IMG/VR virus record: IMGVR_UViG_3300026534_000064
Coordinates: 1 to 23,997 of that record
DNA length: 23,997 nt
Origin: a virus
Direction: 5' to 3' (one strand)
Positions within the stretch are counted from its first letter, which is position 1. Each line of letters starts with the position of its first letter. Both the position numbers and the translations under genes were made by a program. Shown one piece after another: positions 1,288-22,128 of the stretch. Under the pieces are notes generated by a model. The model did not search any database. It worked only from the letters and a program-made list of their open reading frames with translations, and was not told the DNA's origin.

Positions 1288-4231
1288 GCTTTTGAACCGA
1301 TTGCAAAAACGTCCCCTTCTTGGATTGCTCGCAGATCCATTTGGCAAATGCCCGCAGGCCATGGAACTCGATGGAGATTTCCTGCGGGCTACGCGGCGTG
1401 GCATTGTCACATCGATGCCGTTGGAGGCACTAACATCTCCGCCTGAAATCAGGAAAGGGATGCTGGGCACCGCCCTGACCATCGAGTCTGGCGGACATGG
1501 CGACGTCACCCTGAAGGGGGCGCGCTTTTCGGATGCGCGGGCGTTCTCGGAAGAGGTGAGGAGCGCGTGGGTTCGGTTCAACCTGCTTGCCCTTGAAAAG
1601 GAAGCGGATCGTCTGGAAAGAATCCTCGCTGGAGTGAGGGCGCTGGAGGCACCCTCCCGATACCCGGCGGCGTGCCAAATTGCACCCTTGCTTGACGACA
1701 CCCGTGCCCTTGATGCCTCGCTGCTGTCAAAACTCCGGACCGAGGTCATCGGCGCCGAGGCAAACGAGCGTATTGCCCCCGTTCGGAATTTCTTAGCCGA
1801 CCCGCGGAAAGCGCGGGCCAATGGTATCGCCACCTTCGTCACTGCCGAACTGAACCGCTGGAAAGAGTTCTTCGACACGATCGAAAGCAATCCGCTGACC
1901 CCGGAACAGCGGCTATCCGTCGTCGTGGATGAGGATGCGACGCTCGTCCTGGCCGGGGCGGGATCGGGCAAGACCAGCGTCATCACCGCAAAGACGGCCT
2001 ATCTGGTCAAGGCAGGTATCCGGCAGCCGGACGAAATCCTGCTACTGGCATTCGCCAAGAACGCGGCTGAGGAGATGTCGGAAAGGGTCGAGGCGCGCTC
2101 CGGCGTGCCGATCGTGGCGCGGACCTTCCACGCCATTGCCTATGACATCATTGGCGTCGTCGAAGGATCGAAACCGGCGCTGGCTGACCACGCCACCGAC
2201 GACATGGCTTTCTCCAACCTGATCAAGCAGATCCTCAGAGACCTGGTGCATGCGCTATCAGAGGTCTCGACGGTGATCGTCGAGTGGTTTGCCCATTTCT
2301 TCGTTGAGCCGAAGAGCGAATGGGATTTCAAGACCAAGCATGAATTCTATTCGCATCTGGAAAGCCAGGACCTGCGCACGTTGCAGGGTGAAAAGGTCAA
2401 GAGCTACGAAGAACTGCAGATTGCCAACTGGCTTTACGAAAACGGCATCGGATACGAGTACGAACCCGTCTACGAGCACAAGGTCTCTGAAAATGGCAGA
2501 CGCGACTATCAGCCCGATTTCCGCCTGACCGAGAGCGGGATCTACATCGAGCATTTCGGGGTGCGTCGTCAAAAAACGTGGGATGGTAGCGAGCGATTGG
2601 TCACGGCCCCATTTGTGGATCGAGACGAGTATCTGGCCGGCATGGAGTGGAAGCGCAAGGTCCACGCCGAGCATGGAACCACCTTGATCGAAACCTACAG
2701 CTATGAGCGGCAAGAAGGGCGCCTGTTGACGGGGCTTGCAGAGAAGTTGGCCCCGCACGTCACACTGAAGCCACGTCCGGCGGACACGATCTATGACCGC
2801 ATAGTCGAGCTCAAGCAGGTCGATGACTTTTCGAAGCTGCTCGGCACGTTCCTGCGAAAGTTCAAGAGTGGCGCCTACACCCTGGAGGATTGCGAAACCA
2901 AGTCCGAGCGGGTGAAGCTGGGCAAGCGGGCCAAAGCGTTCCTCGACGTGTTTGCGCCGGTTTTCGAGGAATATCAGAAGCGGCTTGGCGGTCGGATCGA
3001 CTTTGAGGACATGATCCTGCGTGCCGCGCGTTACGTTGAAACCGGCCGCTATGTCAGCCCGTTTCGCCACATCCTGGTTGACGAGTTTCAGGACATCTCG
3101 CAAAGCCGCGCCCGGCTGGTGAAGGCGCTGAAGGCCCAGCATCCGGATGTCCGCATCTTTGCCGTGGGCGACGACTGGCAGTCGATTTTCCGCTTTGCCG
3201 GTTCCGATATCCATCTCATGCGCCATTTCGGCCGCGAATTTGGCGGACGCTTTGATGGTGAGGACGGGGTGCACAGGACCGTCGATCTCGGCCGCACCTT
3301 TCGGTCGGTCGATCAGATCGCCTTTGCGGCACGAACCTTCGTCCTGAGAAACCCGGCACAGATCGAAAAGAAGGTCATTCCGGCAGGGACGGCAACTGAA
3401 CCGGCAATCAGGATCGTGTCTGTATCGAAGGGCGAGAGCGAACAAGAGCTTTCCGGGGTGCTCGCGGCAATCGCTGCCAAGCTGGAGGAAGGCGCAACAC
3501 CTGCAAGCGTGCTGCTCCTCGGGCGGTATCGCTTCCTTGAACCTGACATGCGCAAGCTGAAGCGCCGTTTTCCGCAACTGCGGATAAGCTTCAAGACCAT
3601 CCATGCCTCGAAAGGTCTGGAGGCCGATCATGTGATCCTTCTGAACGCCGACAGTGGGCGGACCGGGTTCCCCTCGGAAATCGTCGATGACCCTCTACTT
3701 TCTCTGGTCTCGCCGGAAGAAGAGGCTTTCCATAACGCCGAGGAACGGCGCGTCATGTATGTCGCCATGACGCGGGCCCGTCACACCCTGACGATCCTCG
3801 CATCCAACGCGCGACCATCATCCTTTGTCACCGAGCTGAAAAAAGACCCCGACTACGGCATTGCCGCGCCACAAGGCGCGGAGTCGGAAGCCCATGTTTG
3901 CGGCGAGTGTGGCGGGCGGCTGCTGGGAGTGACAGGGAAGGATGGCCGCATCTGGTATCGCTGCGAGCATGTTCAGCATTGCGCAAACCTCCTGCCTGCC
4001 TGTCCGTCCTGTGAAACCGCGCTTCCGCGCCGCGCGGATGGCGCTGCCGAAGCTCGATGTGGCTGCGGCGCCAGCTATCCATCCTGCCCGGAATGCGAAG
4101 ACGGCTGGCTGGTCGAGCGCAGAGGGCGATACGGTCGTTTCCTCGGCTGTGTTCGATATCCCGCGTGCGTCGGGAAGGCCCGAATCCCGTCCAAAGAACG
4201 GCGCGCTTCGGCGATGAAGTCAAAGCGTTAA
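1247..4231 (+). CDS. UvrD/helicase IV-like SF1 helicase with nuclease-like insert and zinc ribbons
   Basis: About 994 aa from ATG 1247; the frame is open from a TTG at 1199, so the exact start is uncertain. SF1 helicase motifs appear in order: Walker A GAGSGKT (about 236-243), DEFQD Walker B (about 612), GDDWQSIFRFAG, TIHASKGLEADHV and VAMTRARHTL. Between motif I and the DEFQD motif is an insert of about 200 aa with YQPDF near residue 421 followed by IYIEHFG. This is the layout of a PD-(D/E)XK nuclease, but H replaces the usual lysine, as I recall for helicase IV-like proteins. The C-terminus (about 884-965) carries several CxxC pairs ending in a topoisomerase-type zinc ribbon (RRGRYGRFLGC). 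Probable role: 3'-5' DNA unwinding in repair or defence. It overlaps the phosphatase gene. Confidence 0.88.
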   Translation: MSPWGGLKRITRFKLLNRLQKRPLLGLLADPFGKCPQAMELDGDFLRATRRGIVTSMPLEALTSPPEIRKGMLGTALTIESGGHGDVTLKGARFSDARAFSEEVRSAWVRFNLLALEKEADRLERILAGVRALEAPSRYPAACQIAPLLDDTRALDASLLSKLRTEVIGAEANERIAPVRNFLADPRKARANGIATFVTAELNRWKEFFDTIESNPLTPEQRLSVVVDEDATLVLAGAGSGKTSVITAKTAYLVKAGIRQPDEILLLAFAKNAAEEMSERVEARSGVPIVARTFHAIAYDIIGVVEGSKPALADHATDDMAFSNLIKQILRDLVHALSEVSTVIVEWFAHFFVEPKSEWDFKTKHEFYSHLESQDLRTLQGEKVKSYEELQIANWLYENGIGYEYEPVYEHKVSENGRRDYQPDFRLTESGIYIEHFGVRRQKTWDGSERLVTAPFVDRDEYLAGMEWKRKVHAEHGTTLIETYSYERQEGRLLTGLAEKLAPHVTLKPRPADTIYDRIVELKQVDDFSKLLGTFLRKFKSGAYTLEDCETKSERVKLGKRAKAFLDVFAPVFEEYQKRLGGRIDFEDMILRAARYVETGRYVSPFRHILVDEFQDISQSRARLVKALKAQHPDVRIFAVGDDWQSIFRFAGSDIHLMRHFGREFGGRFDGEDGVHRTVDLGRTFRSVDQIAFAARTFVLRNPAQIEKKVIPAGTATEPAIRIVSVSKGESEQELSGVLAAIAAKLEEGATPASVLLLGRYRFLEPDMRKLKRRFPQLRISFKTIHASKGLEADHVILLNADSGRTGFPSEIVDDPLLSLVSPEEEAFHNAEERRVMYVAMTRARHTLTILASNARPSSFVTELKKDPDYGIAAPQGAESEAHVCGECGGRLLGVTGKDGRIWYRCEHVQHCANLLPACPSCETALPRRADGAAEARCGCGASYPSCPECEDGWLVERRGRYGRFLGCVRYPACVGKARIPSKERRASAMKSKR

Positions 4232-5036: not shown

Positions 5037-5777
5037 TCAGACGGTCGGCACCGTCGGCATCAGATACTGGATGGCAATGCGGACATCGCCACCGGTGAAG
5101 TTGCCGCCGTTGGCGGTCAGCACAATCGGCGTGGGCGCATAGAATGCTTGCGGCCCGATCACCCCGACATTGGTGCTACCGGCGGCCACGCCGAGCGAGC
5201 CACCAAACTTGGCGGGTTCGCCGGCGATGCCGCAATCCCATGAGGTAGCTCCCAGCACGGCCGCGACAGTGCGGGTCGAGACCGCCAGCACGATGGCGCG
5301 GTCGGGGATGGCGATGGTGGAGGTGACGGTTGGACCGGTAAGCTCCGCCAGCAGCTCTTCCTCCACGTGCAGCCCGATGGCGGCCCCGCTCGCCCCCTGC
5401 GCCACCTCGACTGTAGGAGCCCGCACCAGCAGGTTCAGGGCCGTATCGAGCGAGAGCCACGCCCCGCCCACGCGCACGAACAGCACGCCCTGATCGTCGA
5501 TCCAGACCCGCCAGCCTTCCTGCGGGATCAATCTCACCCACGCCCCGCCGGTGAACAGCACCACGTCGCCGTCCCACCCGGCCCAGGCCCCTGTGGCGCC
5601 GGCGGCCACGATGTAGCGCTCGCCCTCGACCGGGCTAGCCGGGGGCGCGGGCAGATCACGGTCCTTCGCCGAGAGCTGGACTAGGCCGTCGAGGAGGGCC
5701 AGTGCCTCGTTGACGGTGACGTGCTTCTGGGCCTGGGCGGCGGCAAGCAGCGGCAGGGCGAGATTGGGCGTGGTCAT
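5037..5777 (-). CDS. DUF2793 phage tail-associated protein
   Basis: A 246-aa protein starting with TTPNLALPLLAAAQAQKHVTVNEAL, where the AQAQKHVTVNEAL part is the strong DUF2793 signature. Family members follow the tail-tip gene in alphaproteobacterial prophages and are thought to be tail fibre or tail-tip accessory proteins. Residues 1-110 form the DUF2793 core, with several tryptophan-rich turns (WAGWDGD, GAWVRL, GWRVWID). The rest (about 120-246) is rich in T, V, G and A, like a beta-structured receptor-facing module. A good GGAGG lies before ATG 5777, and the gene overlaps the upstream tail-tip gene by 4 bp (ATGA), so translation is coupled. Confidence 0.88.
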   Translation of the reverse strand: MTTPNLALPLLAAAQAQKHVTVNEALALLDGLVQLSAKDRDLPAPPASPVEGERYIVAAGATGAWAGWDGDVVLFTGGAWVRLIPQEGWRVWIDDQGVLFVRVGGAWLSLDTALNLLVRAPTVEVAQGASGAAIGLHVEEELLAELTGPTVTSTIAIPDRAIVLAVSTRTVAAVLGATSWDCGIAGEPAKFGGSLGVAAGSTNVGVIGPQAFYAPTPIVLTANGGNFTGGDVRIAIQYLMPTVPTV

Positions 5778-8700
5778 GGCGTGGCCTCCGTGATGGTGAG
5801 GGTGGTTGCAAGCGGCACGCCACGGCCCAGCGCGCCGAGCTGGAAGATGCGGACGGACAGGCTGGCGACCGGTGCGCCGAAATCGGCGGTCTGCATGGCG
5901 GCGGTGTAGAGGAAGCTCGGTGCAGTGAGACCAGTGACGGTGCGCACCACCGCACCGGCGTTCAGGATTTCCAGATCATAGCTTTCCGATGCTTCCGACA
6001 TGGGCACCTCCGCCAGTACCCAGCTGTCGGACGAGAGCGCCCGATCACGGCGGAGCCAGCGGATGGAGAGGTCGCCGTTTGCCTCACGCCGCATGTGCGC
6101 CTGTGCCGGCGCAAATGGCACAAGCCCGCGCCCCGAGGGCGTGAACGCGAGCGTCTGCATGATGGCGCCCGAGGGTGCGACATTGCCCGGCCCGATGCGC
6201 CAGTTCCATGGGATGCCGAGATCGGCTTCGGAGATCGAGATGGGCTGGACGGCGGTGTCGAGGATCACCACCCGCGCACCGGTGGTCGCCGGGTTGCCCA
6301 TGGCATCTTCCGTGCCCCGCTGCCCGCGCAGAAGGCGGGTGAGCCGATAGCGCCCGGTTGCCACGAGTTCCGCGTTCCCGAACTGGACGATCTCCCAGGC
6401 ACCTGGCGCACTTTCCACGGCCAGCGCGTTGGCGCCGTTCAGAAGCTCGGTATCGGTGACCGAAGCCAGCGTGCCCGAGGTGAGGTCCAGTAGCAGTTCG
6501 CTGCCCGCGTCAAACCGCCAGAGCGGCCCGGTGGGCAGATCAGCGGCCAGAACCCCCATGTGCGCCGGCGCTCCGATGGTGTCGAGCAGCTGGAAGCCGG
6601 ACGTGTCGACACTCCACCAGACCGCCCCGGTGCCGTACCACGGCCTCGCGAACACCGCCGCGTAAGGGCGATGCGCCGGCACCGTGTCGGCCAGCTGTGG
6701 CAGATCCATCAGAGCGATGTCAGCCGGCCCGAAGACGGTCGGCTCGGCCAGCTGCGGATCCCGACCCTTGCCCGGCGGCAGATCATAGAGCGCGGCGTCG
6801 ACGCGGATCGCTTCGATCACGCGCGCCCCGGAATCGGAGATGCGGGAAATCCCATATTCGACCCGCCGCCCGTCGTGATCAAGGGCGATCACGTCACCCG
6901 GGTCCAGCGCGAGGCGCGAGGGCGGCAACCGGGCGGTCAGCGTCTCGCGCCCCACCCAGGCCTCCATCAGCGCCCGGCGGCAGCGGCGGTCGGCTTCTTC
7001 CAGCGATACCGCCAGCGGGAAGGTCTCGGAGGATACCCGCGCCGCCTGCACGGTGGACCGGCGGGCTTCGACGGTGGCCGCGTTGTATTCTTCATCGGCC
7101 CGCACCAGCTGCCATTTGAGGGCTTGGGGCAGTTCGGTCTCCTGGCCCCTGGTGAGTTCCATGACCTCGGCCTGCCCATTGCCAACCATCTGATCCGGCG
7201 CAATGGTCACAACCACTGCCCGGCCGCGGGCACGAAACACGATCTGCCCACCGCTTTCCACCGCATCGAAGCCGAAATGGCGGGCCAGCACCGCGATCGA
7301 GGCGCGGAGGCTTTCCAGCGCGGCCACGGTGAAGCCCGGCACGATGTCGGAAAGCTCGGAGACATCCACGAGGCTGTCGTCCAAACCGGCCGCCCGGCAC
7401 AGGTCCCGCACCAGCGCGCCCAGCGAGACCTGCCCGAGCCGCCCGCCCATCCAGTGCCCCAGCCGCCAGTTGGCGGCGTCCGACCAGACATCGGCGCGCG
7501 CCGGGAAATCCGGAAAGGGCCGGGCATCCCAGGTCCAGAGTGCCGCCTCGCCGGTCTCGATCATCGGCGCGCCATAAACTGTTGAGACCGGGTTTTTCGT
7601 CGCATCGCCCCAATAGCCCAGCGTCGCTTCGACGTAGGCGCGCTGGATTGCCTCGTCCTGCCAGCCGCGCGAGAAGTACGGCAGGGCGCTTTCCGAACTC
7701 TTCGGATCGTAGAACACGTTCGGCTGGTTGGTGCCGCGATCCACGGCGGGGCAGCCGAACTCGGTGAAGCGGATCGGCTTGGCTTGCGGCGCCCAGCCGG
7801 TGGTGGACTGGCCCCAAGGCAGCACCTCGACGCCGTAGACCACGATGTCCTCGCCCGCGGTCGCCGAGCGCGGCCCGATGCGGAACCCCGCCGAGCCCGA
7901 CAGGCCCGCAGTGACGTCAAGGGTGATCTTCCACAGACCCGGATACACTTCCGTCTGGCTGGTGGCATTGATCACATGCGCCCCGGCCGCGGTGCTCTCC
8001 CACCCACCGATGGTACCAAAGAAGGACGCATGATCGGCGCCCGCGCCCAGCGCGAGATAGAGCGCGAAGTCCCCCGAACTGCCCGGAGCCACGAATGCCG
8101 CGATGGTCACCCGCTCGCCGGCCGTGAGCGTCCGATACCCCGGCGTTGCCCCGTGCCAGGTAGCCCCGTCAGAGGCGACGAGCGCTGGACTGGTAAACGG
8201 CCCGAAACTGCCGGTGGTGGCCGTGATGGTGACCGAGGACGGGTTCTTCGCGTAGGAACTCGGGTCGGCGCAATTCTGGAACCAGCCGAAGCGCACGCCG
8301 GCCAGGCGATCATGGTGCAGGTTCTGCCACCAGCTCCGCATGTCCTTCGGACGGAACAGCCATGGCTCGCCGTAGAAGCCGTCGCTGATCGGCGTCCTGA
8401 CCTGCGCATCACGGTCGGCATCGGCAGCATAAAACCAGTCGTAGCCCTCGCCGCCCTCGATGTTGGCCTTGAGATAGTCGAGATCCCGCACGGATGCCCA
8501 GCCGGCCTGGGCGTCCGCGTGATCGGTGCTGTCGCGCCAGTCGGAAAGCGGCAGATAATTGTCGATGCCGATGAAGTCGATGGCCGGGTCGGCCCACAGC
8601 GGATCGAGGTGGAACAGCGCATCTCCGGAGCCGTCCTGCGGCTGGTGGCCGAAATACTCGCTCCAGTCGGCGGCATAGCTGATCTTCGTGCCGGCCCCTA

Positions 8701-10207
8701 AGATCGAGCGCACGTCGGCGGCCAGCTGCTTCATGGCCGCAACCGCCGGATATGTGGTGGCGCTGTCGCGGATAGTGGTGAGGCCGACAAGCTCCGAGCC
8801 GATCAGGAAGGCGTCGACACCGCCCGCCGCCTTGCACAGATGCGCGTAGTGCAGGATCATCCGCCGGAAGCCCCAGTCATTGCCGCCGGTCCAGGTGACA
8901 CTCTCGCCGCTGACCGCGAAATCGGAGATCTGCGCGTTGCCGAAGAAGGCAGATACCTGCGTGGCCGCATCCGCCGTCTTGTCGACCGTGCCGGCAAACC
9001 CCGTCGCCGGCGAACAGGTGATGCGCCCGCGCCAGGGATGGGCCGGCTGGCCGACCGTGGCGGCATTGTCGCTGTAGGGATCGGGCAGGCTGTTGCCCTC
9101 CGGAATGTCCATCAGCAGGAAGGGATAGAAGGTCACCCGCAGGCCGCGGGCCTTCATCTCCTGAATGGCCTGTACCACCGAGAAATCCGTCGGCGTCCCG
9201 CCATAGTTGGTCCTGCCATCGGTATCCAAGCTGATCAGGTGGGCGCCGGCGCGATCCACCCCGTTCACGGACCATGTCTTCGGCGTGGTCGTCTTTGTGG
9301 CGGTCTCGACGCCGGGCTTCAGCTGACAGTTGCCCGCGCGCAGGTCGAGGCCGAACCAGCTTACGACCAGAGAGACATTCCCGATATTGGGCGCCGCCGC
9401 CTGCAGGTTGTCGAGCGATGCCAGGATGTCAGGCTGGCCGGTAGCGTTGTTCACGTTCTCGGAGGTCGTGTTGCCGCCTGAACCCCGGGTGATCGGCTCG
9501 GTCGCGTAGACGAACTCGCCGGAGCCCGGAATAATGGTGATGGACCTGACCATCCTCTCGGCTGTGTCCGCTTCCAGCAGCGGCCGGAACACCTCGAAGG
9601 AGAGCTGTGGGATGCGGTTGCCGAAGGGCGTGAGGTCGAGATCCTCGAACATGACGTAGGCGGTGCCCCGGTAGGCCGGGGCATTGCCTGTGCCCATCCT
9701 GGCCTCGATGAAGGGATCGGGCATTTGCGTCTCGTCGCCCTTGTAAAGCCGCCAGGTGACGCCCGACAGATCCAGCGGCTTGCCGTCCGCCCACACCCGC
9801 CCGATGCCGGAGATCGGCCCTTCGCAGAGCGCCACGGCGAAGGACGCGGTGTAGCTGTAGGTCGTGGTGGTGACCTTCGGCCTGCCGCCCTTGCCGCCAC
9901 CCGAGGTCGAGGTGCTGACATGCTCGGTGAAGTCGGTCGCCCATATGATGTTGCCTCCCATGCACATCCGGCCCCAGATGCGCGGGATCACCGCGCCTTC
10001 GGTGGATGTGGTGACGGCAAGGTTTTCCAGCCGCGCACCCTCGATCCGCTGGCCGGGCGCCAATGATGAGACGATCCAGCTGTCGACCAGCGATCCCGCC
10101 ATGGAGCCGATGACCCCACCGATGACGGCCGAGGACACGCCAAGGATGCCGCCGCCGATGGATGCCCCGATTGCGGAGCCGGCGGAGGCGAGAAGGATCG
10201 AGGCCAT
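5774..10207 (-). CDS. tail-tip/host-specificity protein with TIM-barrel domain (GTA gp15-like)
   Basis: A 1477-aa protein of the GTA/phage TIM-barrel tail family, which forms the distal tail hub and probably contacts or digests the cell envelope. Residues 1-50 are a glycine/alanine-rich hydrophobic segment as in tail-hub proteins. The TIM-barrel-like region runs from about 330 to 900 with landmarks FLIGSELVGL, FIGIDNYLPLSDWRD, GEPWLFRPKD and FTEFGCPAVDRGTNQPN. The rest is the phage-tail part (about 950-1200), then beta-rich C-terminal modules. The barrel is interrupted at about 650-803 by a Ser/Thr/Gly-rich segment that resembles a carbohydrate-binding beta-sandwich. It starts 3 bp after the NlpC/P60 stop. 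Confidence 0.92.
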   Translation of the reverse strand: MASILLASAGSAIGASIGGGILGVSSAVIGGVIGSMAGSLVDSWIVSSLAPGQRIEGARLENLAVTTSTEGAVIPRIWGRMCMGGNIIWATDFTEHVSTSTSGGGKGGRPKVTTTTYSYTASFAVALCEGPISGIGRVWADGKPLDLSGVTWRLYKGDETQMPDPFIEARMGTGNAPAYRGTAYVMFEDLDLTPFGNRIPQLSFEVFRPLLEADTAERMVRSITIIPGSGEFVYATEPITRGSGGNTTSENVNNATGQPDILASLDNLQAAAPNIGNVSLVVSWFGLDLRAGNCQLKPGVETATKTTTPKTWSVNGVDRAGAHLISLDTDGRTNYGGTPTDFSVVQAIQEMKARGLRVTFYPFLLMDIPEGNSLPDPYSDNAATVGQPAHPWRGRITCSPATGFAGTVDKTADAATQVSAFFGNAQISDFAVSGESVTWTGGNDWGFRRMILHYAHLCKAAGGVDAFLIGSELVGLTTIRDSATTYPAVAAMKQLAADVRSILGAGTKISYAADWSEYFGHQPQDGSGDALFHLDPLWADPAIDFIGIDNYLPLSDWRDSTDHADAQAGWASVRDLDYLKANIEGGEGYDWFYAADADRDAQVRTPISDGFYGEPWLFRPKDMRSWWQNLHHDRLAGVRFGWFQNCADPSSYAKNPSSVTITATTGSFGPFTSPALVASDGATWHGATPGYRTLTAGERVTIAAFVAPGSSGDFALYLALGAGADHASFFGTIGGWESTAAGAHVINATSQTEVYPGLWKITLDVTAGLSGSAGFRIGPRSATAGEDIVVYGVEVLPWGQSTTGWAPQAKPIRFTEFGCPAVDRGTNQPNVFYDPKSSESALPYFSRGWQDEAIQRAYVEATLGYWGDATKNPVSTVYGAPMIETGEAALWTWDARPFPDFPARADVWSDAANWRLGHWMGGRLGQVSLGALVRDLCRAAGLDDSLVDVSELSDIVPGFTVAALESLRASIAVLARHFGFDAVESGGQIVFRARGRAVVVTIAPDQMVGNGQAEVMELTRGQETELPQALKWQLVRADEEYNAATVEARRSTVQAARVSSETFPLAVSLEEADRRCRRALMEAWVGRETLTARLPPSRLALDPGDVIALDHDGRRVEYGISRISDSGARVIEAIRVDAALYDLPPGKGRDPQLAEPTVFGPADIALMDLPQLADTVPAHRPYAAVFARPWYGTGAVWWSVDTSGFQLLDTIGAPAHMGVLAADLPTGPLWRFDAGSELLLDLTSGTLASVTDTELLNGANALAVESAPGAWEIVQFGNAELVATGRYRLTRLLRGQRGTEDAMGNPATTGARVVILDTAVQPISISEADLGIPWNWRIGPGNVAPSGAIMQTLAFTPSGRGLVPFAPAQAHMRREANGDLSIRWLRRDRALSSDSWVLAEVPMSEASESYDLEILNAGAVVRTVTGLTAPSFLYTAAMQTADFGAPVASLSVRIFQLGALGRGVPLATTLTITEATP

Positions 10208-15504: not shown

Positions 15505-17634
15505 CTACATCCCCCTCCGGCCGAGCGACACCGCGCGGGCAATGTCGGCGGCAACCTGGGCGCGGCTCTGCCGGAAGCTCTCGGCGTCGCGGGTCTGGAT
15601 ATTGATGGTGATGTTTTGGGAGCTGCCCGCACCTGCTGCCACCTCGCGCCGGGACAGGACACGCTCGCCCCTTTGCAGGATCGCCGGAACTTCGTCCGGT
15701 CTGAAACCCGCCCACCCACCGCCGTGCATCCGGGGCGCGCCGGCGAAGGCCATCACCGGCACCACGCGCTGGGGCGCTGTTGCGCCCACCATGCCGCCCG
15801 CGTGCATCACCGGCGCAAAAATGCTTCCCAGACCACCCAGCGCGCCGGCCAATGCATTGGCCAGCGGCCCGAGGATGAACCGGCGCGCCGAAAGCTGCGC
15901 CAGATCGGCCAGGATCGAGGTCACCAGCGAGCGGAAGTCGAGCTTGCCGGTGCGCACGAACTCGCCGATGGCCTGCTCCGCGCTGCGGAAGGCACTCACC
16001 AGCGTGTCGCCGAGTCCTTTGCCAAGTTCCATCGCCCTGCTCGCGTAGTTCTTCAGCGACGTGGTAGCGGTTTCCCATGCAGCCTTCGCGACATCGGCCG
16101 CCTCGTCGGCAGCACTGCCGGCCCGGGCGACGCTCGTGGCCAGCCGCCCGGCGGCATCAACGGTGCGGTCCAGTGCTTGCGCGCCATCATCCCCCGCGCC
16201 CTTCATCGCGTCGCGCAGGGCAGTCATCGATTCCAGGGGCCGCGTGATATTGCCGGCAAGAATATCCGCCTGATCGCCCAGGTTGCCGGCGTAGTAGCGG
16301 AACTCGTCTGCCGTCCTGCGCAGCTGGTCCACGGCCTGGCCGGCAAAGGCGGCATCCAGCCCGATATCCATCGCCAGCCCGTCCATGCCAGGGATCTTGA
16401 ACAGCGCGCCCGAGATGGTCTTGAGAAACCGCGCCCATTTGTCCTGCATGGCGGCGAGCGCATCGAACCAGGTGGCCTTGAGGCGGTTGCCGACGGCGCG
16501 CATGCGCAGCACGATGCTCCACGCCCCGTCGCCGATGCGGGTCCAGACCTCGACCGCTACGTCCTTGAGCAGGCCGAGTGCGGTGCCAAAGCCGCCCGCG
16601 CCGCGCGCGAGCCGCCCGAACCAGTAGATCAGTTCCCCGGCCCCGACGATCAGCGCCCCGATCCCGGTGCGGATGATGGCCGCGCGCAGGACCTTCATGG
16701 AAAGCGCCAGCTTGCCGACACCCAGCGCCGCGGCGGAGAGCGAGGCGACGAGACGGACGCCCAGAACGCCGGCAAAGATGGCGGCGATGGTGGCCAACTC
16801 ACCGATATGATTGAACAGCCCCTTGATGGCGCGCCCGAGCGGGCCGGTAGTCTTGCCGACAGCCGCAAAGACATCCGCCATTGCCTCAAGCGCAGGTGCC
16901 GCGGCGACGGCCAGCTGGTTGGCAATGCCACGCCACAACAGCCCCATGCGGGCGAGCGCATCATTGGTACGCTGGATCCGGGCGGCGTCCTGTTCCGACA
17001 CCGCCACCCCGAAATCCTCCACGTCCTTCGTGGCCTGTCTGAGCGTGGCACTGTCGATGCGTGAGAAGATCAGGCCTGCGCGCGCGCCGAAGATTTGCGA
17101 GGCGACCGCGGCGCGCTGTGCCGCAGGGATGTATTTCTGGATCGCGCCCTGGATGGTGGCGAGCTTCTCGTCGATCGTCAGCTTCGCAAGATCAGAGGCC
17201 GACAGGCGCAACTGCTCGAGTGCCTTCACCGCCGGGCCTGTCCCCTGCGCCGCCTGGCTCAGGCTTTTGGTCATCATGATGGTGGCCTGCTCGACCTCTC
17301 CCTGCGACACGCCCGCGAGATCGGCGGCGCGCGCCAGCACCTGCAGGCTTTCGGTGGTGGTACCGAGCGAGGCCGCGAGCTTGGCCTGTTCGTCGATCAC
17401 CTGCAGCCCCGAACGCACCATTGCCACTCCGGCGCTGACCGCAGCGGCGGCCATGATCCCGGCGGCGATCTTCGCGCGCCGCGCAAACTTCGCCAGCTTC
17501 GCATTGGCGATCTCCATCTCGCGCGAGGCCTTGCCAAAACCGCGCTTGCCAGCGTCACCGATGCCCTCGAGCTCAGCCCGCACCTGCTTGCCACCCACCG
17601 CAGCCAGGCGGACGCTGACGCGTCGTTCAGCCAT
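15505..17634 (-). CDS. tail tape measure protein
   Basis: A 709-aa protein that sets tail length and is ejected with the DNA. The start is ATG 17634 (MAERRVSVRLAAVGG), overlapping the end of the GT frame by 8 bp; the frame is open further upstream, but that part is only the shadow of GT. The N-terminal 60 residues are coiled and basic, followed by an alanine-rich membrane-like segment (AAGIMAAAAVSAGVAMV, near 50). Another hydrophobic block (IAAIFAGVLGVRLVASLSAAALG) lies near the middle, and the C-terminal part is rich in G and A (FILGPLANALAGALGGLGSIFAPVM). Its length would predict a fairly short tail. Confidence 0.9.
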   Translation of the reverse strand: MAERRVSVRLAAVGGKQVRAELEGIGDAGKRGFGKASREMEIANAKLAKFARRAKIAAGIMAAAAVSAGVAMVRSGLQVIDEQAKLAASLGTTTESLQVLARAADLAGVSQGEVEQATIMMTKSLSQAAQGTGPAVKALEQLRLSASDLAKLTIDEKLATIQGAIQKYIPAAQRAAVASQIFGARAGLIFSRIDSATLRQATKDVEDFGVAVSEQDAARIQRTNDALARMGLLWRGIANQLAVAAAPALEAMADVFAAVGKTTGPLGRAIKGLFNHIGELATIAAIFAGVLGVRLVASLSAAALGVGKLALSMKVLRAAIIRTGIGALIVGAGELIYWFGRLARGAGGFGTALGLLKDVAVEVWTRIGDGAWSIVLRMRAVGNRLKATWFDALAAMQDKWARFLKTISGALFKIPGMDGLAMDIGLDAAFAGQAVDQLRRTADEFRYYAGNLGDQADILAGNITRPLESMTALRDAMKGAGDDGAQALDRTVDAAGRLATSVARAGSAADEAADVAKAAWETATTSLKNYASRAMELGKGLGDTLVSAFRSAEQAIGEFVRTGKLDFRSLVTSILADLAQLSARRFILGPLANALAGALGGLGSIFAPVMHAGGMVGATAPQRVVPVMAFAGAPRMHGGGWAGFRPDEVPAILQRGERVLSRREVAAGAGSSQNITINIQTRDAESFRQSRAQVAADIARAVSLGRRGM

Positions 17635-18294
17635 GTTCCTGTTCCAATCGTTCGTTGAATTTGGCGACCATTGCCGCTTCGATCGCGGGCAGAAGCTCCG
17701 CAACCGCGACGCCTGGCACGCCCAGCGCCCCGGCCAATGCCAGCGCCGCGCCCATGTCCCAGCCGATGATCGCGCCAGAGGGGGCGATGCGCAGCTGCCC
17801 GCCGAGACGGCCGACAATGTCCCAGATCTGCATGCCGTCAAGGGTCTGCGGCCCGTTCAGGACTTGCGGGCAGTCCGAGCAGATTTGTGGGCAGGCCGCG
17901 CAATATCCCTCGCCCCCGCCGAAGACCCAGTCGGCGAGGGCGGTGAGGCGTTTTTTTCCTGCTCCAGCAGCAGGCCTTTTGCGACATAGCCGGTCTGGAA
18001 GGCTTCAAACAGCGGCCAGAGGTCGAGCAGGGCCTCGATGGCCTCGGGGCTGACGGGGATGGGATTGCCCTCGGCATCGCCAACACCCTCCCAGTCAAGC
18101 ACCGCAACCCGGGCCAGCGCCTTGGCGAAGGCCAGTGCGCTTCCCTCGTCGCCTGCATTCTCGTCCAGCGCCTGTACCGCCGGGTCATTGCGCGCGGCTA
18201 CCATCATGGCGGTGGTCAGTGGGCGCAGTTGCACCCGCACCCCATGACCGAGATCCAGCCACGTGGGTTCATTGGAAAGATCGAGTTTCAGCAT
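17627..18294 (-). CDS. tail assembly chaperone GT, made by -1 frameshifting
   Basis: A -1 slip at A AAA AAC (17956-17950) joins the first 115 residues of G to 107 residues encoded in the other frame, giving about 222 aa. The T part begins RLTALADWVFGGGEGYCAAC and continues with a second pair CSDC (two CxxC units, a possible metal site), then MQIWDIVGRLGGQL and ends EQEHG. An ATG at 17833 inside this frame has no ribosome binding site, so independent translation of the last 68 residues is unlikely. In lambda, GT bridges tail tube subunits and the tape measure; the same role is expected here. Confidence 0.75.
17857..18294 (-). CDS. tail assembly chaperone G
   Basis: A 145-aa protein from ATG 18294 (MLKLDLSNEPTWLDLGHGV), 3 bp after the tail tube stop; an in-frame ATG at 18336 lies inside the tail tube gene and is less likely. 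The content is soluble and helical. By position between tail tube and tape measure it is the lambda gpG analogue that coats the tape measure during tail assembly. Past the slippery site near residue 115 the zero-frame tail becomes a low-complexity S/P/A/R-rich run (NASPPSPTGSSAGARDIARP), typical of the terminated product of a frameshift gene. Confidence 0.8.
   Translation of the reverse strand: MLKLDLSNEPTWLDLGHGVRVQLRPLTTAMMVAARNDPAVQALDENAGDEGSALAFAKALARVAVLDWEGVGDAEGNPIPVSPEAIEALLDLWPLFEAFQTGYVAKGLLLEQEKNASPPSPTGSSAGARDIARPAHKSARTARKS
17907..17957 (-). promoter_or_regulatory. -1 programmed frameshift signal: slippery heptamer plus hairpin
   Basis: On the minus strand the run of seven A (17957-17951) followed by C gives A AAA AAC in register with the zero frame (GAA AAA AAC). 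Nine bases later CCCTCGCC (17940-17933) pairs perfectly with GGCGAGGG (17914-17907) across an 18-nt loop. Slippery site, spacer and 8-bp GC-rich stem are the three canonical parts of a -1 frameshift signal. Confidence 0.75.
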
Positions 18295-18296
18295 GG

Positions 18297-19235
18297 TCAA
18301 TAACTGCTCACCTGGTTCTTGAGAACGATTGTGCACATCTGCCCGGCCACGGAGTCGTAGGCCGCCTGCCAGTCGAAACTGGCCTGGATGCCCTGCGGCC
18401 CCTGGATCTCGATGCGTGGACGCGGCAGGTAGACCGCGTGCGCCGTGATGGTCAGGTTGACATTGGCGGAGATCACCCAGGAGAACTCCAAAGACGCGGA
18501 ACTGCCATTCAGCGCCTGATCCATCAGCGTGGTGTCGGCGAAGCGCACATCGATCTTGCCAGTCAGCGCGGCAATGGAGGGATCGGCCCCGTCGATACGG
18601 CCATCGCTGCGGATGGTCTCGATGCGCTCGACGTTGTTGGAATAGGTCAGGTCGGCCGAGACGATATTGCCCAGCGCCGTGCCGTTGCGCTTGATCGCGC
18701 CGTTGAAGTGGCCGAAGCGCTGCAGCGCATAACCGGTGGGCGTGCCGGCCGCCGAGGCGGTGGCCACGTTCTCGCCTTGGGCCACCAGCTTCACGTCAGC
18801 CGTTAACAGGCCGGAGCGCTGCATTTGCAGGCTCAGCTGATCCAGCACGCAACCCGTGTACATGGCAAAACGCGGGATCTCGGGCATCGCCACCTCGATG
18901 GCCATGCTGGGGAGGTCCCACGAACCCGACTTGAAGGTGTGAGTCTTGTTGGAAGTCCCGGTGGTGGTGGGATTGCCGAACGCCGCCTTGAGCCAGAAGC
19001 CGAAGGCCTCGGCGTCCAGTGGCACCTTGATGTCGCCATCTGCCGTCACCGCATCCTTGATCGGGGCCAGCGGGTCGCGGCCGTAGCCGAGCAGTTCGGA
19101 GGCAAGCAGCGGCTGTTCGGCCCCAAGCGAGGCGCTGGCAAAGGGCATCTGCATGAAGCCGGAGGCCGGCGCGGTGCCATAGGTGGTTTCGAACGCGGCC
19201 GCGAGCTGCGACCGCGCGCCTTGGGCGCGGGGCAT
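18297..19235 (-). CDS. major tail tube protein
   Basis: A 312-aa structural protein and the likely tail tube subunit. It starts at ATG 19235 with AAAGGA seven bases upstream. The N-terminus (RSQLAAAFETTYGTAP) and the VPLDAEAFGFWLKAAFGNPTT stretch around 95-115 are typical of siphophage tail tube proteins; the rest alternates beta-strand-like segments (IEVAMPEIPRFAMYTGCVLDQLSL, SADLTYSNNVERI, LEFSWVISANVNLTI). No membrane or signal segment. The position just upstream of G/GT and the tape measure supports the call. It would be among the most expressed late proteins. Confidence 0.87.
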   Translation of the reverse strand: MPRAQGARSQLAAAFETTYGTAPASGFMQMPFASASLGAEQPLLASELLGYGRDPLAPIKDAVTADGDIKVPLDAEAFGFWLKAAFGNPTTTGTSNKTHTFKSGSWDLPSMAIEVAMPEIPRFAMYTGCVLDQLSLQMQRSGLLTADVKLVAQGENVATASAAGTPTGYALQRFGHFNGAIKRNGTALGNIVSADLTYSNNVERIETIRSDGRIDGADPSIAALTGKIDVRFADTTLMDQALNGSSASLEFSWVISANVNLTITAHAVYLPRPRIEIQGPQGIQASFDWQAAYDSVAGQMCTIVLKNQVSSY

Positions 19236-21084: not shown

Positions 21085-22128
21085 TTACTCGACCGCTTTC
21101 AATACCTCGCTCAACGCAAGGTCAAACACGCGGTCGGGATCGGACACGCCACCCTTCACAAGGTACTGATGGCTTCGAGTGATAAAGCTGACATAACAGA
21201 GGCCAAGATCGAGGCGCTCATGCAGGTCGCAACCCACCTCGCCCACATGTGACTTTTCAACCGATCGTTCGAGAGCTTGGCGCATTTTTGGGAGCGGAGG
21301 GCAAACCCGTCCATTGGCAACCTTGGACCATTCAATACGAATGTTTTCGGCATATTCCGGATGCAGGCGCTCATCGAGTTGGTTTGAAAGCGACTGGTAA
21401 AATTCGGTCTTGGTGCGATAGCCCAACCTGTTTCGCGCAGTGTCCATCCATCGACCCAAAGCAAGCCGTGGTCCTTCACGATCTGAGCTTCCCAAAACAA
21501 GGCGTTTCATCATAACCAGCGCATCGTTCTTATTCGGCATTGTTTCGAACAGAAAAGCAAGAAGCAGCAGGGTTGCGACATATATGTGGAGGGGTGCCAT
21601 CGCGCTTTCTGAATCTCCAGTATTGCTCCCCAACACCCGATCGGCACAATTGTGATATAGCACTGCACCACTAGCAGAACTCGGAACTCTGCGTAGCTCG
21701 GCCGCGAAAGCTTGCACCCCATCCCTGCGGGCAACAGAATGAAGGTTATTTGACGCACCCACGACGTCACGCAACAGCGCAACCGTTTCCGGGGCGAACT
21801 GGCGAATGGTGCTCTCTGCGAACCCCCACGGCCCCATGGCAACCACATCGGGCGGTACATTCGCCGGGTCCGGGATGCCCAGTTGATGATGCTCTAAAGA
21901 AAAGTCACATAGCTTGTTAAAAGCCTTTTCGGTCATTCCTCCGCTGAGGCGCGCCCGGTCATAGGCACGTCGAAGAGCCTGATTCCCTTCTGGCCCTGGG
22001 AGCTGTGGGCCGAAAAAGTGATCCTTGATTGAAACCCCGAGCATGGCGGCATAGTCATCCGGATCAAGCAACAGTCGCAGATACCGGTCGATTTCGACAT
22101 TTTCGTTCTGCGCCATATTTTTCTTCAT
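21085..22128 (-). CDS. unknown 347-aa protein facing the viperin operon
   Basis: I do not recognise a family. The start ATG 22128 has GAAGG nine bases upstream. The protein is soluble and helical, except for a hydrophobic stretch at about 188-204 (LHIYVATLLLLAFLF) that could be a single membrane segment or a buried helix. The region near 275-300 (RIEWSKVANGRVCPPLPKMRQAL) recalls an HTH-like recognition segment. It ends 41 bp from the end of the small HicA-like gene, convergent with it. Base composition is AT-richer than the phage genes, like the viperin. It could be a regulator or third component of the viperin cassette, or an independent moron. Confidence 0.75.
   Translation of the reverse strand: MKKNMAQNENVEIDRYLRLLLDPDDYAAMLGVSIKDHFFGPQLPGPEGNQALRRAYDRARLSGGMTEKAFNKLCDFSLEHHQLGIPDPANVPPDVVAMGPWGFAESTIRQFAPETVALLRDVVGASNNLHSVARRDGVQAFAAELRRVPSSASGAVLYHNCADRVLGSNTGDSESAMAPLHIYVATLLLLAFLFETMPNKNDALVMMKRLVLGSSDREGPRLALGRWMDTARNRLGYRTKTEFYQSLSNQLDERLHPEYAENIRIEWSKVANGRVCPPLPKMRQALERSVEKSHVGEVGCDLHERLDLGLCYVSFITRSHQYLVKGGVSDPDRVFDLALSEVLKAVE

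Follow-up and report, generated by a model that had tools for sequence, protein, structure and literature searches.

A probable frameshifted tail assembly chaperone

The G/GT frameshift of phage lambda was reportedly described by Xu, Hendrix and Duda in 2004, and the lambda slippery site is G_GGA_AAG. The lambda G protein and the rarer GT, in a ratio of about 30:1, bind the tape measure protein, the T part recruits the tube protein, and neither G nor GT stays in the virion (PMC5009743). In another phage cluster 6-7% frameshifting of the tail chaperone has been determined experimentally (PMC3711429), and papers on Rhodobacter capsulatus phages mention a tail frameshift (PMC8601537, PMC4882933).

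The window, by which we mean the whole stretch of DNA analysed, is a virus record of 23,997 bases with a tail module on the minus strand. It resembles lambda in having a zero-frame chaperone, a -1 shift near the 3' end and a T extension, all between the tube protein and tape measure genes; unlike lambda it has A_AAA_AAC as the slippery site, a conserved 12-bp hairpin and a four-cysteine module in T, and neither G nor T gave a sequence match with lambda proteins. The R. capsulatus phages RcKemmy, RcDormio and RcKai encode homologues of both proteins, about 43% identical for G and about 50% for T, in the same gene order and with the four cysteines, deposited as joined CDSs, although their slippery site is G_GGA_AAC and their stem is re-paired with different bases. 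The mechanism is known already from lambda G/GT, and the Rhodobacter phage relatives are annotated likewise; added here are a corrected hairpin, a cysteine module that is family-wide, and a proposed role for the Pfam families DUF7697 and DUF1799, namely as T domains encoded through a frameshift. Judged from the sequence and its relatives, programmed -1 ribosomal frameshifting of the lambda G/GT type, as the initial annotation had proposed, is very likely in the window: the slippery site and hairpin are conserved, and the relation of the frames, the order of the genes and the matches to known families all agree.

Organization of the tail module

The minus-strand order is tail tube protein, G, T and tape measure protein, so that the chaperone pair lies between the tube protein and tape measure genes as in lambda-type systems.

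18297-19235, minus strand: tail tube protein, adjoining G upstream (PF18906, E 9e-62)
17857-18294, minus strand: G, the chaperone read in the zero frame; 145 codons long (match to phrog_313 'tail assembly chaperone', E 3e-25)
17627-17956, minus strand: T, extension in the -1 frame; 109 codons counted from the slip site, then a stop
17857-17956, minus strand: dual-coding overlap of the G tail and the T start, 100 nt, of equal length in 153/181 relatives
15505-17634, minus strand: tape measure protein, 709 aa (PF09718, E 5e-18; phrog_8462, E 4e-129)

Homologues of G are 28-91% identical. The -1 frame, described in the initial annotation as open and ending at the start of the tape measure gene, does stay free of stops from a point upstream of the heptamer as far as the T stop at 17629-17627, and the tape measure ATG (17634-17632) gives an 8-nt overlap. 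The 100-nt dual-coding overlap contains both the hairpin and most of the four-cysteine module.

Slippery site and hairpin

The proposed recoding signals lie in the 3' part of G.

17950-17956, minus strand: slippery heptamer A AAA AAC in the G zero frame (codons GAA AAA AAC), at the identical codon in 181/183 relatives
17911-17942, minus strand: 12-bp hairpin with an 8-nt loop, beginning 7 nt past the heptamer; probable frameshift stimulator (RNAfold and relatives)
17907-17940, minus strand: 8-bp stem of the initial annotation, an alternative register (17940-17933 with 17914-17907)

The heptamer has the X XXY YYZ form and is read in the zero frame of G, as the initial annotation had it; it occupies 17956-17950 on the minus strand, and the -1 frame is open for T. 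Relatives were collected from IMG/VR, from one-per-species bacterial genomes and from phage records, giving 183 non-redundant loci. At the G slip codon 175 of these have A_AAA_AAC, four G_GGA_AAC and two A_AAA_AAA; of the exceptions, L011 has a one-base deletion that leaves one A fewer, and in L032 the T alignment begins late, past an in-frame break, with the G frame still reading EKN at the slip codons. The lambda-type signal is thus kept across homologues (heptamer 181/183, hairpin 165/181), although these counts are not independent events, since the sequences are related; when they were clustered at 80% identity, 14 of 20 representatives had 12/12 pairs. Away from this site, AAAAAAC turns up once per 62 kb of coding strand in the related loci (66% G+C), and codon usage does not explain the conservation, since among synonymous codons GAA, AAA and AAC have shares of 46, 42 and 70%. 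GGAR-like bases precede many of the sites, yet they are variable, and we make no claim for a Shine-Dalgarno-like upstream stimulator.

The initial annotation had paired a perfect 8-bp stem nine nucleotides downstream of the heptamer. The two arms, CCCTCGCC and GGCGAGGG, are literally there, but they form neither the favoured nor a conserved fold, and the check by conservation that had been suggested for both elements bore out the heptamer and not this stem, which is complete in just 7/181 relatives and was rejected for that reason. It is replaced here by the 12-bp hairpin predicted by RNAfold, CGCCCUCGCCGA(8-nt loop)UCGGCGGGGGCG, all 12 pairs of which are formed in 165 of the 181. Since the stem overlaps conserved coding sequence, the null model was one in which the T-frame codons were randomised synonymously; all 12 pairs arose in 0.3% of the randomised sequences as against 91% of the real ones, and the mean folding energy over 45 nt was -18.3 kcal/mol for the randomised and -26.0 kcal/mol for the real sequences. 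Substitutions in the stem are mostly one-sided with the pair retained (C-G to U-G, G-C to G-U), two-sided re-pairing being seen in a few relatives, such as RcKemmy with CUU opposite AAG, and at one stem position 171/181 have glycine encoded by the rare codon GGG (9%). For the window alone RNAfold gives a stability that exceeds that of shuffled sequences modestly, with z = -1.0 over 81 nt and z = -2.8 over a core of 52 nt. In locus L023 the heptamer is kept and the downstream fold differs. The relatives constitute a large natural set of variants in both slip site and hairpin.

T-domain families

Two features of T lie past the slip site.

17870-17902, minus strand: four-cysteine module CAACPQICSDC (CxxC-x3-CxxC), conserved in relatives
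17630-17785, minus strand: DUF7697 domain (PF24752), T residues 58-109 (Pfam E 2e-23; phrog_11212)

DUF7697 and phrog_11212 match the C-terminal 52 residues of T above cut-off, with 82.3 bits for DUF7697 against a curated cut-off of 27 bits, and every one of the 44 aligned members has a DUF7697 match at the E-value applied. Both models cover solely the part past the cysteine module, and both are annotated as of unknown function. In a wider sample of DUF7697 loci the heptamer was found in 37/42. The wider loci include two decayed copies (L229 and L241), two matches that fall below the cut-off and are not T (L232 and L248), and a copy truncated at a contig end (L261). The DUF7697 profile also has a match above cut-off in the control genome of Caulobacter vibrioides.

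No DUF1799 (PF08809) profile match was found for the window T, and the best E-value among the 44 members was 0.0017, with none reaching the cut-off of 26 bits. The two T families are nevertheless linked by profile-profile comparison (hhalign probability 91%, E about 1e-6), and at certain loci both profiles match at one place within one genome. Among 29 DUF1799 loci sampled across the phylum (L263-L290 and L292), a slippery heptamer is present in the T frame in 29/29 (19 AAAAAAC, nine GGGAAAC and one AAAAAAG). DUF1799 thus has a homologous T domain and the heptamer in common with the window T; unlike the window, it lacks the four-cysteine module (CxxC occurs in the T of 1/29 loci) and has almost no overlap in 24/29, where the zero frame stops directly past the heptamer, as in A_AAA_AAC_TGA. 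It is because of this early stop and the near lack of CxxC in DUF1799 that the module, the long overlap and the hairpin mark out the DUF7697 branch.

Since the two families are homologous and DUF1799 has the heptamer at every sampled locus, both look like frameshift-encoded T domains of tail assembly chaperones, and two Pfam families of unknown function thereby gain a function that can be tested. Where a -1 frameshift leads into such a domain, gene prediction may overlook the slip site or may report a gene that is separate and truncated; in the paper on phage VarioGold a DUF1799 protein is listed as a separate gene past the tail chaperone, with no frameshift mentioned. In a literature search of partial coverage this was the one paper found to name DUF1799, and none was found on DUF7697; we make no claim of priority.

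Translation of T

Within the first 60 codons of the window's T frame the only start codon is the ATG at 17833, which has no Shine-Dalgarno-like sequence, in keeping with the earlier reading that the internal ATG has no ribosome-binding site. T is conserved from the slip codons onward, and its most conserved residues, KKRL.AL.W.FGGG..YC..C, stand before this ATG. Among the 181 relatives there is no conserved T-frame start, 47 lacking any start among codons 1 to 60 and 171 lacking one that is preceded by a Shine-Dalgarno-like site; together with the position of the most conserved residues, this supports a frameshift fusion. Homologues that lack the heptamer and encode two separately started proteins, named in the initial annotation as the finding that would speak against it, were looked for; the intact relatives keep the heptamer and have a T without a conserved start.

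It is accordingly scarcely credible that T is a separate protein, made from an internal start or by coupled re-initiation, with the overlap incidental. An ATG does exist, and the Nostoc and Synechococcus phage records show two separate genes; both of these records, however, have A_AAA_AAA at the site, and in the window the conserved cysteine module precedes the ATG. An internal start was ruled out on the lack of any conserved start codon in the relatives. Transcriptional slippage, in which RNA polymerase would add or drop an A on the seven-A run of the window so that some mRNAs join both frames, finds a precedent in the slipping of bacterial RNA polymerase on A runs, described for runs of nine (PMC5009743). 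We consider it very unlikely, and it is disfavoured as a general mechanism because G_GGA_AAC, which has no long homopolymer, replaces the A run in four close relatives, several distant DUF7697 loci and 9/29 DUF1799 loci; the downstream RNA hairpin, moreover, is conserved, with a spacing typical of ribosomal frameshifting.

With programmed ribosomal frameshifting, the majority of ribosomes would read G through to its stop at 17857, while a minority would pause at the 12-bp hairpin and move back by a single base on A AAA AAC, where the slipped tRNAs would re-pair with AAA AAA and reading would continue into T. The conserved signals suggest that the product is a G-T fusion, and the DUF7697 domain with the four-cysteine module that precedes it would be translated by shifted ribosomes alone. 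By analogy with lambda, G and GT would coat the tape measure protein and the T part would recruit the tube protein encoded directly upstream; the GT:G ratio, the binding and the fate of the products we infer to be as in lambda.

The zero frame in most relatives runs for about 32 codons onward from the slip codons, and in a structural model of the window G the tail past these codons is of very low confidence, as disorder would give. This tail seems dispensable, since in several relatives (L023, L225, L231, L236, L243 and L255) the zero frame stops one codon past the heptamer. A long T frame in L136 reflects merely a lost stop codon.

The four-cysteine module

The two CxxC units seen in T in the initial annotation prove to be family-wide: the spacing is CxxC-x3-CxxC in 167 loci and CxxC-x9-CxxC in 13, together 180/181 relatives. 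In the wider DUF7697 sample, 37/37 heptamer-bearing loci have at least four cysteines near the T start, often with longer loops, as in YCRECVDRGELCARGQPGLNGKLCP. Cysteine is otherwise rare in T, at 0.08 per protein past residue 45. A conserved module is thereby defined that would be made by shifted ribosomes alone.

The module is probably metal-binding, with zinc the simplest reading and, as a suggestion of the initial annotation, a reasonable one. Two conserved cysteine pairs, as in zinc ribbons and knuckles, are present in 180/181 close relatives, although no match of T to a known zinc ribbon was found by PDB fold or sequence search. It is possible, if unlikely, that the cysteines instead bind an iron-sulphur cluster or form disulphides, with the frameshift unaffected. 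Some siphophage tail-tip proteins bind Fe-S clusters, and sub-threshold Pfam resemblances of single members include an Fe-S domain beside zinc ribbons; none of these resemblances reaches the curated cut-off, however, and the variable loop between the cysteine pairs fits a zinc knuckle or ribbon better. A literature search on zinc in tail assembly chaperones gave keyword matches with neither term in title or abstract.

A more speculative and rather improbable reading is that tail-length control is metal-dependent, the assembly competence of GT, and not of G, depending on zinc or redox state. If this were true, the module would be present in the shifted product alone, as an insertion that follows the slip site and precedes a T domain like that of DUF1799, and one overlapping stretch would encode both the module and the hairpin that sets the dose.

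Structure comparisons and other genes

Searches of the PDB by sequence and by fold with G and T gave no significant match, and a search of NCBIfam gave none. The T model has a pLDDT of 73.8, a moderate confidence. Among its best viral fold matches, the named ones are tape measure chaperones from enterobacterial siphophages, Enterobacter phage F20 (Foldseek probability 0.99) and Klebsiella phage Solomon (0.90), with TM about 0.5 and weak E-values of 0.03-0.16.

Three long frames on the minus strand (331-1986, 2258-3631 and 21085-22128) match neither Pfam nor PHROGs. Past the tape measure gene lie genes for DUF2460, phage lysozyme, phiJL001 Gp84-like baseplate hub, NlpC/P60 and GTA_TIM-containing tail proteins. 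The lysozyme gene (PF00959; 14216-14878, minus strand) is flanked by the DUF2460 tail gene on one side and by the gene for the Gp84-like baseplate hub on the other, in a GTA-like tail-tip module. The 1477-aa tail protein encoded at 5774-10207 (minus strand) contains GTA_TIM, Phage-tail_3 and Rcc01698_C domains and is similar to the Rhodobacter gene transfer agent's large tail-tip protein.
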